From positions 2,256,819 to 2,320,818 of the forward strand of contig CP129479.1 of the NCBI GenBank assembly GCA_030583865.1: DNA of 64,000 nt. The letters are read 5' to 3'. Shown here piece after piece: positions 675 through 3,956 of the stretch. A model generated the notes under the pieces. That model was not told the origin of the DNA. It saw nothing but the letters and a program-made list of their open reading frames with translations, and searched no databases. The stretch is from Thermodesulfobacteriota bacterium (GTDB lineage Bacteria > Desulfobacterota > GWC2-55-46). Every line of letters begins with the position of its first letter. Positions within the stretch are counted from its first letter, which is position 1. The position numbers and the translations under genes were made by a program.

Positions 675-1226
675 TTACTTGCTTTTTCTGGCAGGCGCAG
701 GATGACGTCTTTCGACGTGGCCTTCGGGTTTCCTGCCTGACGGCGCGCCGTTTTTCGCGACCCTCAACGACAGGAAGGCCGCGATAAGAAGCAGGGCGAA
801 GGAGACCTCGAACAAGGTGAGCGAGGCGATCTTCAAGTAGGCGAATTCTTCCGATACATAGACTATGAGCCAGCCTGAGAGCGCATCCGTAAGGCCGGAC
901 GCGATGGGCAGGAGCACGAGCAGGTACTTGGCGGCCATGGAAATCGGCAGGGCAGCCGCGAGATGGCCGGCAAGGAGTATGGCTATGCCCATGGAGAACA
1001 TGTGCATGTGCGTAATCTCGAGGAGCCCCTGGAATGAGACGGGGTTCTTGAACGCCTCCTCCGAGCCGAGGTAATGGGTCACCACCGCTTCATAGCTCCA
1101 CCCTATCCTTTCGGCGTGTATTACTATGCCCGACAGGTGCGAGAAGGCGAGATAGAGGAGCCCGGCAAAGAGGACGACCTTCAAGAGATTCCCCTGCGGA
1201 GCCTCCCCTTTTCCAAGGTACTTCAT
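675..1226 (-). CDS. Four-helix membrane protein of unknown function, His-rich helices
   Basis: A 183-residue protein with four predicted membrane spans (about 14-38, 66-92, 97-124, 129-152) and a basic C-terminal tail. Histidines lie in or next to helices 1 and 2 (FSHL, VIHAE, THMHMF, AGHL), which would suit haem b or metal binding, but no known haem-protein signature is recognised. Its ATG overlaps the stop of the FMN-binding gene (ATGA at 1226-1223), so the two are translationally coupled. With the FMN protein on one side and cytochrome b561 on the other, a role in membrane electron transfer is a reasonable inference. I cannot name the family. Confidence 0.7.
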   Translation of the reverse strand: MKYLGKGEAPQGNLLKVVLFAGLLYLAFSHLSGIVIHAERIGWSYEAVVTHYLGSEEAFKNPVSFQGLLEITHMHMFSMGIAILLAGHLAAALPISMAAKYLLVLLPIASGLTDALSGWLIVYVSEEFAYLKIASLTLFEVSFALLLIAAFLSLRVAKNGAPSGRKPEGHVERRHPAPARKSK

Positions 1227-1840
1227 CTCATGCCTCCGGGGACGGCTATCTCCATTGTGGCGAGCGTCTTCCTTACTTCCCTCGTTAGTCCGAACGCGGT
1301 AAGCGTCGCCCCGGTTATTGCCTGTATGTCCCTGTTTATCCAGAGGCTTTCGGAAAGCCTTTTACCCCTGAACTGGTCGAGCCACCTCTTGGAGGGTATG
1401 TATTCGAGCGGCTCGTAGAAGGCGAGTATCTCGACATAGCGGAGCTCCCCTCCTGGACTTATAACGGCCATGTACGCCTCGGGCTTGGTCCTGACTACAT
1501 GGCTCTCTATTACCGCGTAGCCTTCTATGCCGGCTTTTCCTCGGGCCGCGTAATAGGTGAAGAGCTTTGAGCCCGGCCTCACCCCTGAGGCCTTCTCGAT
1601 CTCATCGAGGTCCGAGTCCTTGAGGAAGACCGATTCTTTTTGTATCTCAAGGCCGGGGAAGGCCCTCGCCAGGGCCTCGTCCCTCGTCGAAAATACCTTC
1701 GCATCGAGGGGCAAGGCCCAGACGAGGAGCGCCGCAAGGACCAGGAAAACCGACCACGCCTTCAATGCGGACGCCCTGGCCGTATTGAAGCGAAGGAGGA
1801 AGAGAGGTCTTTTTTTCTGTCCCATGCAGGCGCCTTTCAT
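1223..1840 (-). CDS. FMN-binding domain protein, covalent flavinylation motif
   Basis: A 205-residue protein with one N-terminal membrane anchor (about 29-45) and a periplasmic FMN-binding domain like RnfG/NqrC. The motif ITGATLTA (175-182) contains the TGAT in which threonine (T179) receives FMN covalently from ApbE in this family. No apbE is in the window. It follows the porin gene with almost no gap and overlaps the next gene by ATGA. An internal ATG at residue 6 (1825) has a slightly better ribosome site (AAAGG, 7 nt away) and may be the true start. Likely role: an extracytoplasmic one-electron flavin carrier between the membrane cytochromes and another redox partner. Confidence 0.82.
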   Translation of the reverse strand: MKGACMGQKKRPLFLLRFNTARASALKAWSVFLVLAALLVWALPLDAKVFSTRDEALARAFPGLEIQKESVFLKDSDLDEIEKASGVRPGSKLFTYYAARGKAGIEGYAVIESHVVRTKPEAYMAVISPGGELRYVEILAFYEPLEYIPSKRWLDQFRGKRLSESLWINRDIQAITGATLTAFGLTREVRKTLATMEIAVPGGMR

Positions 1841-1841
1841 C

Positions 1842-3152
1842 TTAGAATATGAAGCCGACTCCCAGGTTGAACTGGTCTATCTTGTTCTCGTCGAGCCCGG
1901 TCCCCTTGCCTTCCGGCAGGCCGGAAGCGGTGTCCCTTATCTGGTAGTCCGCCTTTATGACGACGTTATGTATGGGCTTGTAGCCGACGCCTATGGTCGT
2001 TATCTTCCTGTGCTGGGTCGGGTCCTTCGTAACGCCCGCGAAGACCTCGTGGTGGGTGTCGTAGTCCTCGTAGCGTATAAATGGCGTAAGCGACGACTCG
2101 GACATGGGCTTTATATGGGGCATTACATCATAGGCAGCCTCCACATACCAGCCCTTGGCCTTCTTGCCTACCGGAGCAGTAGTAAGAGGATCCGCCGTTG
2201 TGCCCGGAGGTGCCGTCTCGAACGCGCTATTGCCGTCGAGCTTGCCCTCGGCATACAGGCCGCGTAGCTCAAGCCCCTTCTGCCGGAATATGGTGTGAAC
2301 CTCCCAGAAATCAATGTCTGCGTTCTTGTCCGCAGCCGAAACCACGCTTCCGCCCGCGCCTGCCCCGGCCTCGCCGAAGTAGTAGCTGCCGCCGACGGAA
2401 AAGCCCTCTGTCACCCCGTACTCGAGGCTCAGGACATAGGCCAGGCTCTCGGCGTTGGCGCTCGTGCCCTTGAACCTGCCGTTCCTTATCCAGTCGGCCT
2501 TCCTGAAGCTGTCGGATCTAAGGCCGTTCAAGACCGCGGCCTTGTAGGAGAGGCCGCCCACCTCGCCGTGCACCATTACGCCGAGGTCGCGCCAGGTGGT
2601 GGGGATTATGTTCCTCTCGACCTCGGGGCGGTTGACCCCGTGGAAGGTCGTGGGCTCGTGGAACTCGTTCACTATGCCCATGGGCACGAGCACGAGTCCG
2701 GGCCTTACGTTGAAGGCCTCGTTAATAAGGAAGTCGATATAAAGGAACTCTACGAAGACCTCGTTCGCGTGCTCGAACTCTATCTCCGCGTTGAGGACGA
2801 TGTTGTCCGTGAACTTGTACCCGGTGTACAGGATGAACCTGAGCGTATCAGCCAGGTCTTTTTTCGTGTCGTCGAGATAGTTGGTGTAGAAGAACTCGCC
2901 GTAGCCGCCTATCGAGAGGCCGCCCCTTTTGCCGTAGACCTTCGATGCCGCCGGGCCGAGGCCGGAGAACGACTCGTACTTGTCGTCCGCCACCTCACCG
3001 AGCTTCAATTTCTCGACCTCTCCGGTCAGGATTTCCACCTTCCTGTTAAGCTCGCTCAAATCGCTTTCCGCCGCCCGGCTCTCCGGCGGCGCGACCCCCA
3101 AAAGCAGCGCAGCCGTGAACGCCATCGCGGTCATGTTTCTCAAGCCCTTCAT
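1842..3152 (-). CDS. Outer-membrane porin with N-terminal coiled coil
   Basis: The 436-residue product starts at MKGLRN, chosen because AAGGAGGGG lies directly upstream; the open frame extends 34 codons further but lacks a signal. It has a signal peptide (about 1-26), a short coiled-coil segment (SDLSELNRKVEILTGEVEKL, about 28-47), and then a long region of alternating aromatic and polar residues ending in GVGFIF, typical of a beta-barrel with a terminal phenylalanine. Substrate is unknown. It is first in the porin, FMN-binding, membrane-protein set, so it may admit a substrate or redox partner to the periplasm. Confidence 0.8.
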   Translation of the reverse strand: MKGLRNMTAMAFTAALLLGVAPPESRAAESDLSELNRKVEILTGEVEKLKLGEVADDKYESFSGLGPAASKVYGKRGGLSIGGYGEFFYTNYLDDTKKDLADTLRFILYTGYKFTDNIVLNAEIEFEHANEVFVEFLYIDFLINEAFNVRPGLVLVPMGIVNEFHEPTTFHGVNRPEVERNIIPTTWRDLGVMVHGEVGGLSYKAAVLNGLRSDSFRKADWIRNGRFKGTSANAESLAYVLSLEYGVTEGFSVGGSYYFGEAGAGAGGSVVSAADKNADIDFWEVHTIFRQKGLELRGLYAEGKLDGNSAFETAPPGTTADPLTTAPVGKKAKGWYVEAAYDVMPHIKPMSESSLTPFIRYEDYDTHHEVFAGVTKDPTQHRKITTIGVGYKPIHNVVIKADYQIRDTASGLPEGKGTGLDENKIDQFNLGVGFIF

Positions 3153-3410
3153 CTTCCCCTCCTTGCATGGTTGATTGTCTTCACCAGCCCGGCATTGCAG
3201 CCGACCGGCAGTGCAGCCGAAAAAACCCAATCGGCTCCGAACGCCAGCTTGCATCCAGAGCCCCGCTTGCTACTACTCGAGCCGCATGCATTGTGCGGCA
3301 TCTGTACGGGACTCGGAATCCTCTACAAACTACATACGGCGCTCGGAAAGCACTCGCCCTGGCCCGGGATGGGCATTGGAGGGGTAAACACAGGTACTAG
3401 ACGGGGGAAA

Positions 3411-3563
3411 TCATTCTTCGGCCTCAGGCGTGCCGATCTCCTGGATGAGGCCGCATTTCGGGCATTTTATCTCGATATGCCTGACCTCTCCCTTCATGAG
3501 GAGCCTTTTGCATTTCCGGCACCTTATCTCGCTTTTCATCTGCTTCTCGTAGTCAACGCACAT
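3411..3563 (-). CDS. Com-like small zinc-finger protein
   Basis: The reading frame on the minus strand encodes about 50 residues with two CxxC knuckles, RCRKCKRLL and KCPKCGL, separated by a KGEVRHIEIK stretch. This matches the arrangement of the phage Mu Com family, small zinc-finger translational regulators also found on bacterial chromosomes. Three in-frame ATGs exist (3581, 3569, 3563); the last has GGAG 7 nt upstream and is preferred. No other phage gene is nearby, so it looks like a stand-alone domesticated copy. Three near-identical 17-bp operator-like sites lie upstream, suggesting tight transcriptional control. Confidence 0.65.
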   Translation of the reverse strand: MCVDYEKQMKSEIRCRKCKRLLMKGEVRHIEIKCPKCGLIQEIGTPEAEE

Positions 3564-3589
3564 GTTCATGCTCCGCCTCATTTTTGAAC

Positions 3590-3606
3590 ATGAATTTCAC
3601 TTTCAT
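3590..3606. promoter_or_regulatory. Operator-like site 1 upstream of the Com-like gene
   Basis: ATGAATTTCACTTTCAT, an inverted repeat with arms ATGAA and TTCAT. It differs from the site at 3757 by one base. It sits immediately upstream of the Com-like start. The composition resembles Fur boxes, but the regulator is not proven. Confidence 0.5.
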
Positions 3607-3626
3607 TACCCAGCAAAAGGCCAGCC

Positions 3627-3649
3627 ATGATTTTGATTTTCATATTCAT
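3627..3649. promoter_or_regulatory. Operator-like site 2
   Basis: ATGATTTTGATTTTCAT followed by ATTCAT. It matches site 3 at 21 of 23 positions. On the minus strand it reads as successive GAATAT, GAAAAT and CAAAAT hexamers, the pattern described for Fur-binding DNA. Confidence 0.5.
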
Positions 3650-3756
3650 CAGCTCAGGAATCGTGGCTCGCGAAGGACTCTGGCCTGCCACATGGAGGGC
3701 CTTAGCCCCTGGACCGCAAGGCGCCCTCTTTCGCGCCACATGGCCGGAGCGCGTCT

Positions 3757-3779
3757 ATGAATTTGACTTTCATATTCAT
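3757..3779. promoter_or_regulatory. Operator-like site 3
   Basis: ATGAATTTGACTTTCAT followed by ATTCAT, 130 bp from site 2. The sequence between sites 2 and 3 is GC-rich and unlike the sites themselves. Apart from these sites I see no gene in 3582-3956. Confidence 0.5.
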
Positions 3780-3956
3780 TTACACCGGATCTACTCGCCT
3801 TGTCAAGCGGATTCGTGCAGGCCGCTCCTTTTTCTTTATCCGTGTTTTTCGGCCCAGGAATAATGCCGCAGTAAGTCCCTGTCCTGGAAAGGAAATTCCT
3901 TATAAGGTCCTTGAACCTCAGGAAGGGCCTTGGTGCGGAGCGGCGCCCGTTTTCAG

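Follow-up and report, generated by a model that had tools for sequence, protein, structure and literature searches.

A com-like gene with putative Fur boxes and candidate Com hairpins ahead of a porin-like gene, and its relatives in iron-uptake operons

The com gene, its neighbours and its upstream sites

On the reverse strand of the window (the whole stretch of 64,000 nucleotides that was analysed, from a single-contig genome of 2.75 Mb), the open reading frame at 3411-3581 was found to match the Pfam profile Zn_ribbon_Com (PF10122) over residues 15 to 46 (E 5e-10; 39.1 bits compared to a cut-off of 22.9), in agreement with an earlier note on this DNA that had proposed a Com-like zinc finger. 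This PF10122 match was the sole one genome-wide, and comparison to PDB sequences gave weak matches only, the best being eS27 zinc ribbons (E 9e-5). The start at 3569 was preferred because the com ribosome site, of a GAGG(C/T)GG type common to the congeners, is conserved in congeners (3-4).

The nearest neighbours of com were SCO1 and a UbiA-type (ctaB) gene on the upstream side, with cytochrome-oxidase genes recognized by eye beyond them, and a porin-like gene downstream (Table 1). This arrangement is not that of a com-mom system, and no phage gene was recognized among these nearest genes, as the note had stated. Its term 'stand-alone' needs qualification, as com heads a conserved row that continues with the porin, FMN_bind-like, four-TM and cytochrome-b genes; four com-bearing congeners had the same row, the call of cytochrome b561 by Pfam applying to the window genome only. 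Across six congeners com and the porin were either both present or both absent, and searching the two com-less congeners (G002 and G003, the latter only 77% complete) at E≤0.001 gave no porin.

Table 1. Positions of the com-like gene, its upstream elements, the com-porin leader features and the downstream genes in the window.
Feature	Position	Strand	Evidence and remarks
com-like gene	3411..3569	(-)	52-aa CxxC-CxxC zinc ribbon; longest ORF from 3581; PF10122 and congener start/ribosome site
-35 element TTGACA (predicted promoter)	3801..3806	(-)	kept in all four congeners
-10-like GTAAAT (predicted)	3778..3783	(-)	17 nt from -35; sequence
Fur-like box A TGAAAGTCAAATTCA	3758..3772	(-)	just downstream of -10; 1 of 3 exact genome matches; matched in four congeners
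Fur-like box B TGAAAATCAAAATCA	3628..3642	(-)	overlapping copy at 3634-3648
Fur-like box C TGAAAGTGAAATTCA	3591..3605	(-)	just before com ribosome site; at this place common to G001 only
CCCCTCC	3378..3384	(-)	complementary to porin ribosome site; pairs with SD core in 4/4 congener MFE folds
Candidate Com hairpin 1 GAGTGCTTTCCGAGCGCC	3338..3355	(-)	7-nt loop ending GA; invariant in four congeners; loose scan
Candidate Com hairpin 2 GAGGATTCCGAGTCCC	3308..3323	(-)	4-bp stem, loop TCCGA; strict motif; one loop change in four congeners
GGCGTTCGGA	3236..3245	(-)	could pair at long range with hairpin 1's 3' arm as an alternative; MFE and consensus folds
Porin ribosome-binding site GGAGGGG	3156..3162	(-)	sequence
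Outer-membrane porin-like gene, presumed target	1842..3152	(-)	OMP_b-brl/BBP2 Pfam matches weak, below cut-off
FMN_bind-like gene, same row	1223..1840	(-)	PF04205 E 0.03, below cut-off
Four-TM-like membrane protein, same row	675..1226	(-)	topology by eye; without family match

Three near-identical 17-bp sites had been noted upstream of com, and of these ATGAA-N7-TTCAT was exact at 3590-3606 and 3757-3773 and carried one mismatch at 3627-3643. With up to one mismatch allowed, this pattern had 7 matches in the 64-kb window compared to 0.89 expected, a number reached in 0 of 100 shuffles. By genome motif scan, the 15-bp 7-1-7 form TGAAARTNAAAWTCA had three exact matches in 2.75 Mb, all upstream of com, and ten one-mismatch places. 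One of the ten overlapped the com sites and one preceded a porin-feoA-feoA-feoB row; a TonB receptor and an ExbBD-TonB row accounted for three, a position about 300 nt before a ferritin gene for one, and the stretch just before a DUF2325 gene for another. The remaining three were in or near other genes, including one where, by eye, a succinate-dehydrogenase-like iron-sulphur gene starts. A Fur-family gene was located directly upstream of feoB, with TGATAATTATAATCA ahead of it beyond a tRNA-like stretch. The genome has a FUR-family gene, and the com boxes resemble those at its own iron genes. Based on the kin sites at the feoAB, TonB/ExbBD and ferritin genes, the three com-upstream sites are very probably Fur boxes, a resemblance to which the note had pointed. 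Since three FUR-family proteins were detected in the window genome, naming the one that would bind is conjecture.

The outermost box comes directly after a predicted TTGACA-N17-GTAAAT promoter, and TTGACA, spacing and a box at this place were kept in four congeners. Among the congeners, G001 had all three boxes; in G004, three matches with at most one mismatch were spread over two places, and in G005 two such matches were seen.

Scanning of named-species genomes for Com relatives gave 59 loci, from Deltaproteobacteria MAGs, Nitrospirae/Nitrospira, Nitrospina, SAR324, Deferribacteraceae, Negativicutes and others, and including a divergent group from WOR-1/Saganbacteria/Margulisiibacteriota. PF10122 itself was present in 7 of 59 relatives; among 395 genomes of the phylum, 25 matched it, 19 of these above cut-off. 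At least 14 of these 25 phylum loci had no clear Com motif and were left out. For comparison across species, the 59 loci were combined with the window, L018 and L020 into a set of 62, of which 40 were core and 22 divergent by lineage, a split made after the first hairpin scan. Locus counts from this set are not independent: the window, L076, L077 and L020 represent one genus, and L088/L097, L118/L127, L083/L086, L089/L099 and L090/L093 are pairs from the same assembly.

The expectation that homologues would carry the same upstream sites held in part. A Fur-like site at or above 95% of control windows preceded com in 9 of the 36 core loci covered (the Com motif of the other 4 of 40 was missed by the script) compared to about 2 expected, four of the nine being from the window's own genus and one (L103) looking phage-borne. 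In many of the other loci com sits inside an operon (by eye), so that no box is expected directly before it. In some other genera, com was preceded by near-classic Fur consensus sites (L081, L018, L099 and L102).

The DUF2325 gene with a Fur-like box (G000:C1:1758925-1758945, L022) has likenesses elsewhere, as DUF2325-like genes were seen by eye just upstream of com in two Nitrospiraceae loci (L078 and L085), hinting that DUF2325 belongs to iron regulation.

Candidate Com hairpins at phage, core and window loci

In the portion of the 2019 phage Com study available, the SELEX motif consists of tandem GAG(N)2CC cores in a hairpin, GAGNNCC-type RNA hairpins are bound experimentally, and binding lowers the reactivity of the loop GA (PMC6483171). 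Phage search with a phage-type com yielded 19 records; tblastn of the L097 com against phages gave no match. Ten phage or plasmid Com regions served as positive control, and in nine of these the next gene was annotated as methyltransferase, methylase, modification or mom. A hairpin of the form A-[4-bp stem]-Y..GA-[stem]-C was present within 110 nt before the next gene in 9/10 regions compared to 11/814 control windows from the same loci, and the exact 16-nt motif in 2/10. A looser pattern (any 4-bp stem, loop ending in GA) matched 10/10 regions but also 335/814 controls and was replaced by the stricter one.

Around the com stops of the 62 loci (-120 to +400; 31.7 kb), 36 strictly paired GAG-NNN-YNN-GA-NNN-CC hairpins were detected, compared to 13 in the other 1.04 Mb. 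When the anchors alone were searched in the 40 core loci and pairing was not demanded, 36 of 39 matches near com (-120 to +300) proved fully paired, compared to 13 of 50 elsewhere in these loci. At least 10 of these 13 likewise occupied leader positions, e.g., before a TonB receptor at L089 or upstream of com itself (L090, L092, L102, L098, L105, L106 and L109). A fully paired hairpin lay by the com stop in 25 of the 40 core loci and in none of the 22 divergent ones (25/62 overall). The hairpins beside com were usually tandem with covarying stems. With the hairpins elsewhere included, the com strand of the fetched DNA had at least one strict hairpin in 35 of the 40 core loci. Among the other five, L087 had two matches to model R1 (34.8 and 22.1 bits), the genome of L018 had one 12 kb away, and for L100, L103 and L110 (frame-broken com) none was found. 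The divergent zinc ribbons of CxxC(H/N)RLLAK type (L111-L117, L119-L126 and L128-L134) had neither strict hairpins nor an iron context by eye.

The two hairpins of a pair, some with a looser first hairpin, were 25-31 nt apart in 21 of 24 pairs and 43-55 nt apart in 3. By alignment of 21 tandem elements, 98.8% of cells were found to pair, double changes were seen in 7 of 8 pairs, and covariation was 0.674 compared to 0.248 after shuffling; the anchor-only search is the cleaner test, because the training rows of R1 were chosen partly for pairing. Applied to 395 genomes, R1 matched in 12 at E≤5e-4, 7 of them with Com, and in 8 at E≤1e-6, 6 of them with Com (hypergeometric 9e-7), an overlap that mainly shows rarity in Com-less genomes, since all six matches belong to the training set. 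Five genomes without Com had a match. That of G241 came after a FeoB/FeoC-like pair; in G354, G358, G124 and G214 no iron context was evident, and three or four of these matches were in coding sequence by eye. Rfam models gave a single weak match near the com region (SAM-Chlorobi, 17 bits compared to a cut-off of 35) and six matches at cut-off over 15 loci, none at an element. At E≤1 in 4 loci, two sub-cut-off matches overlapped an element or its terminator (L10_leader on L095, 29.3 bits compared to 44, and a miRNA model on L097).

The leader between com and the porin has two candidate hairpins with GA-ending loops. The one at 3308-3323 conforms to the strict motif, and that at 3338-3355 has a 7-nt loop instead of 5; apart from one loop base both were invariant in four congeners, compared to a mean column identity of 77% for the leader. 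Model R1, trained on sequences from outside the window's genus, matched at 3306-3355 (20.1 bits, E 0.004 in 472 kb), second in the genome to a match at 2124079 (24.8 bits) that was considered as a trans target and counted as chance, as it lies inside a coding gene. With R1, no Com element was detected at the Fur-box loci L022, L034, L035, L069, L071 and L072 of the window genome, and no second genome copy of the conserved block GAGTGCTTTCCGAGCGCCGTA was found at ≤3 mismatches. Single hairpins are uninformative genome-wide, because the pattern gave 337 matches, roughly as many as the 311 of the reversed control. A single hairpin with a GA loop was noted at 1322-1362 (-), within the FMN_bind-like gene and some 100 nt ahead of the four-TM gene; its stem is kept in L019 through two synonymous changes, its loop differs in L020, and it is a possible internal Com site.

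By folding of the congener leaders, the arms of hairpin 1 were found to pair with distant segments, not with each other, in all four MFE structures. The porin ribosome site was paired with a pyrimidine stretch just after com, and in G004 a G-to-T change in the ribosome site was matched by C-to-A. Forcing both Com hairpins cost 9-20 kcal/mol and left the pairing of the porin ribosome site unchanged in all four leaders; in the window the probability of its being unpaired was 0.17 with and 0.17 without the forced hairpins. Simple unmasking of the ribosome site was thus unsupported by constrained folding of the com-porin leader. Over 15 leaders (L089 left out), forced hairpins made the site more open in 6 and less open in 2. 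RNAalifold of the four congeners revealed little covariation (2 of 63 pairs with double changes, too few to decide). Neither a conserved terminator nor a conserved U-run behind a stem was found in the window-genus leaders (alignment and folds, by eye), and in the window leader no hairpin 3' arm was shared with an intrinsic terminator. A terminator switch was rejected for the com-porin leader, the long T-run at an AGCCGA hairpin being present in this genome only.

Terminator overlap and iron context at other loci

In 32 leaders from outside the window's genus, an intrinsic terminator began at the GA in the last hairpin's loop in 18, compared to 290 of 9600 random positions; within this count L081 is doubtful (its U-run is inside the gene) and the coordinate of L087 was wrong, with no hairpin there. 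The Com hairpin and such a terminator cannot coexist, because they share an arm. By duplex test, 17 of 31 last-hairpin arms paired with downstream sequence at z≤-2 (the coordinate of L091 being one base off). In L082, L084 and L089 the arm paired with the ribosome site or start codon, at modest z values of -1.4, -1.8 and -2.0, a pairing that resembles the structure inhibiting mom translation. Across the Com family, formation of the hairpins would thus exclude an inhibitory structure: a terminator in about half of the leaders and, in some of the rest, probably the pairing of the ribosome site.

Pfam was applied to the target genes of 20 of the 32 leaders. Eight coded for TonB-dependent receptors and three for porin-like proteins (two just below cut-off), and one each for a radical SAM protein (ChuW/HutW by NCBIfam), a FeoB behind a FeoA-like gene (by eye), a Com-fused binding protein (best NCBIfam match IsdE, below cut-off), a TonB, another outer-membrane-type protein and a MauG-like protein; three were genes at phage-type loci. 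Sixteen of the 20 were assigned to iron, heme or outer-membrane uptake. The Com of these relatives probably controls the adjoining iron and heme uptake genes by binding the matching hairpins.

Com elements were also seen in rows with a FeoA, FeoB or FeoC-like gene at L088 and L097 (same MAG) and at L209; beside the L209 element no com was detected. In G051, com has a Fur-like box, and a second element (G051:C55:99789-99838; L164, L182) was found 12 kb away with its own promoter and box TGAAAGTGATTTTCA, tandem hairpins and an overlapping terminator, ahead of a small ORF without Pfam match that is upstream of a pilin-like gene (by eye). Judged from these features, the second element is likely a trans target under the same two controls.

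In four Negativicutes loci (L098, L105, L106 and L109) the Com ribbon was N-terminal in one ORF with a substrate-binding domain, without a signal peptide by eye. The sole fusion scanned, L105, matched both Peripla_BP_2 and Zn_ribbon_Com, and each of the four leaders had a Com hairpin overlapping a terminator. The fusion could be a ligand-sensing RNA-binding protein.

Proposed mechanism, alternatives and known systems

We consider it likely that com is repressed by Fur and that Com binds the two leader hairpins, changes the fold and, most probably, raises the porin operon. When iron is plentiful, Fur would repress the com promoter; under iron shortage, com and the porin operon behind it would be transcribed, Com would bind both GA-loop hairpins of the com-porin leader, and the refolded leader would most likely allow higher expression of the operon. 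For the window porin we infer activation from the Com family, since its own leader is without a conserved terminator and folding gave no release of the ribosome site. The small iron-responsive regulator suggested earlier is likely right as far as it goes; RNA hairpins and the presence of com in iron and heme operons elsewhere had been missed.

The same binding could have the opposite outcome, with Com repressing porin translation or setting RNA stability as a delayed brake on the Fur-derepressed operon. This is rather unlikely: the porin ribosome site does stay paired with or without forced hairpins, and antitermination would find no conserved terminator in the window leader, yet the geometry elsewhere, in which hairpin excludes terminator, predicts activation, and Mu Com activates mom in the available part of the report on it (PMC6483171). 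That the hairpins serve another system as attenuators, with Com a neighbouring bystander, appears quite improbable. A strong element without detected com after the FeoB/FeoC-like pair in G241 and the hairpins upstream of com at some loci would fit, but the hairpins fit the SELEX motif of Com, phage com-methyltransferase operons have a close variant, and hairpins follow Com across phyla; Com is present in 6 of the 8 genomes with strongest R1 matches, though these were training sequences. Very improbable is a DNA-binding Com that regulates its own promoter through the ATGAA-N7-TTCAT sites as operators; the sites are close to com, and NCBI names relatives 'Com family DNA-binding transcriptional regulator', yet the same site type stands at feoAB, TonB/ExbBD and ferritin genes, near-classic Fur consensus sites precede com elsewhere (L081, L018, L099 and L102), and phage Com binds RNA by experiment as far as the accessible text of PMC6483171 describes it. 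Com is best known from phages, but a neutral phage remnant with boxes and hairpins by chance is hardly credible in view of the frame, ribosome site, promoter, boxes and hairpins conserved in four congeners, the hairpin enrichment far over background and the co-inheritance of com and porin.

By analogy to Mu Com, the best reading of the Com of iron-uptake operons would be a Fur-controlled RNA-binding antiterminator or translation regulator. More broadly, and here we see the chances as evenly balanced, Com proteins may be widespread bacterial RNA antiterminators or translation switches acting on tandem GA-loop hairpins. In deltaproteobacterial, Nitrospirae, Nitrospina, SAR324, Deferribacteraceae and Negativicutes genomes they would then add a second layer, at the RNA level, to the Fur-type iron control of heme, siderophore and ferrous-iron uptake, with some heme-type binding-protein fusions of Negativicutes perhaps sensing ligand directly. 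The Com zinc ribbon is known so far mainly from phages. The element supplies a candidate RNA target, a predicted mechanism (hairpin excludes terminator) and a putative regulon of iron and heme uptake; if this is true, iron uptake in many bacteria is under a small-protein RNA switch, the zinc-ribbon equivalent of HemP/HmuP, and phage Com is one branch of a larger regulatory family.

Among known systems, the BglG/SacY/LicT antiterminators are alike in that the protein stabilizes a RAT hairpin that shares bases with a terminator; their fold is unrelated to Com and they serve sugar-phosphotransferase system control. We know of no zinc ribbon in HemP/HmuP/ChuP. In the sections of PMC9131926 at hand, these are similarly small proteins, encoded in a Fur-regulated operon before the gene of a TonB receptor, and are proposed to be post-transcriptional activators acting by way of an element in the 5'-UTR; the sequence of this element, HPRE, differs from the Com hairpin, and ChuP binds heme (PMC9131926); they may be regarded as a functional parallel to Com. 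Com-like genes of Pseudomonas likewise stand directly ahead of non-mom genes, those for lectin-like bacteriocin and levansucrase, and the accessible text of a 2018 review calls their general role unexplored and mentions no iron link (PMC6240691); according to the part of PMC3899960 available, a com stop mutation in P. syringae left lscB expression unchanged. In the open-licence literature, mostly titles and beginnings of abstracts, no report of a Com-iron link or of Com antitermination was recognized.

Compared to Mu Com/mom, the window com differs in being chromosomal, with Fur-type boxes and a presumed uptake-gene target, and its family in usually having two hairpins about 28 nt apart, many of which overlap intrinsic terminators, an overlap not described for mom in the available portion of PMC6483171. 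Shared with Mu, by the same portion, are the zinc-ribbon family, the position of com upstream of its target, the GA in the hairpin loop and, as proposed there, the exclusion of an inhibitory RNA structure (PMC6483171). Taken together, profile and RNA element identify the window com as a member of the Com family that is not part of a mom system.
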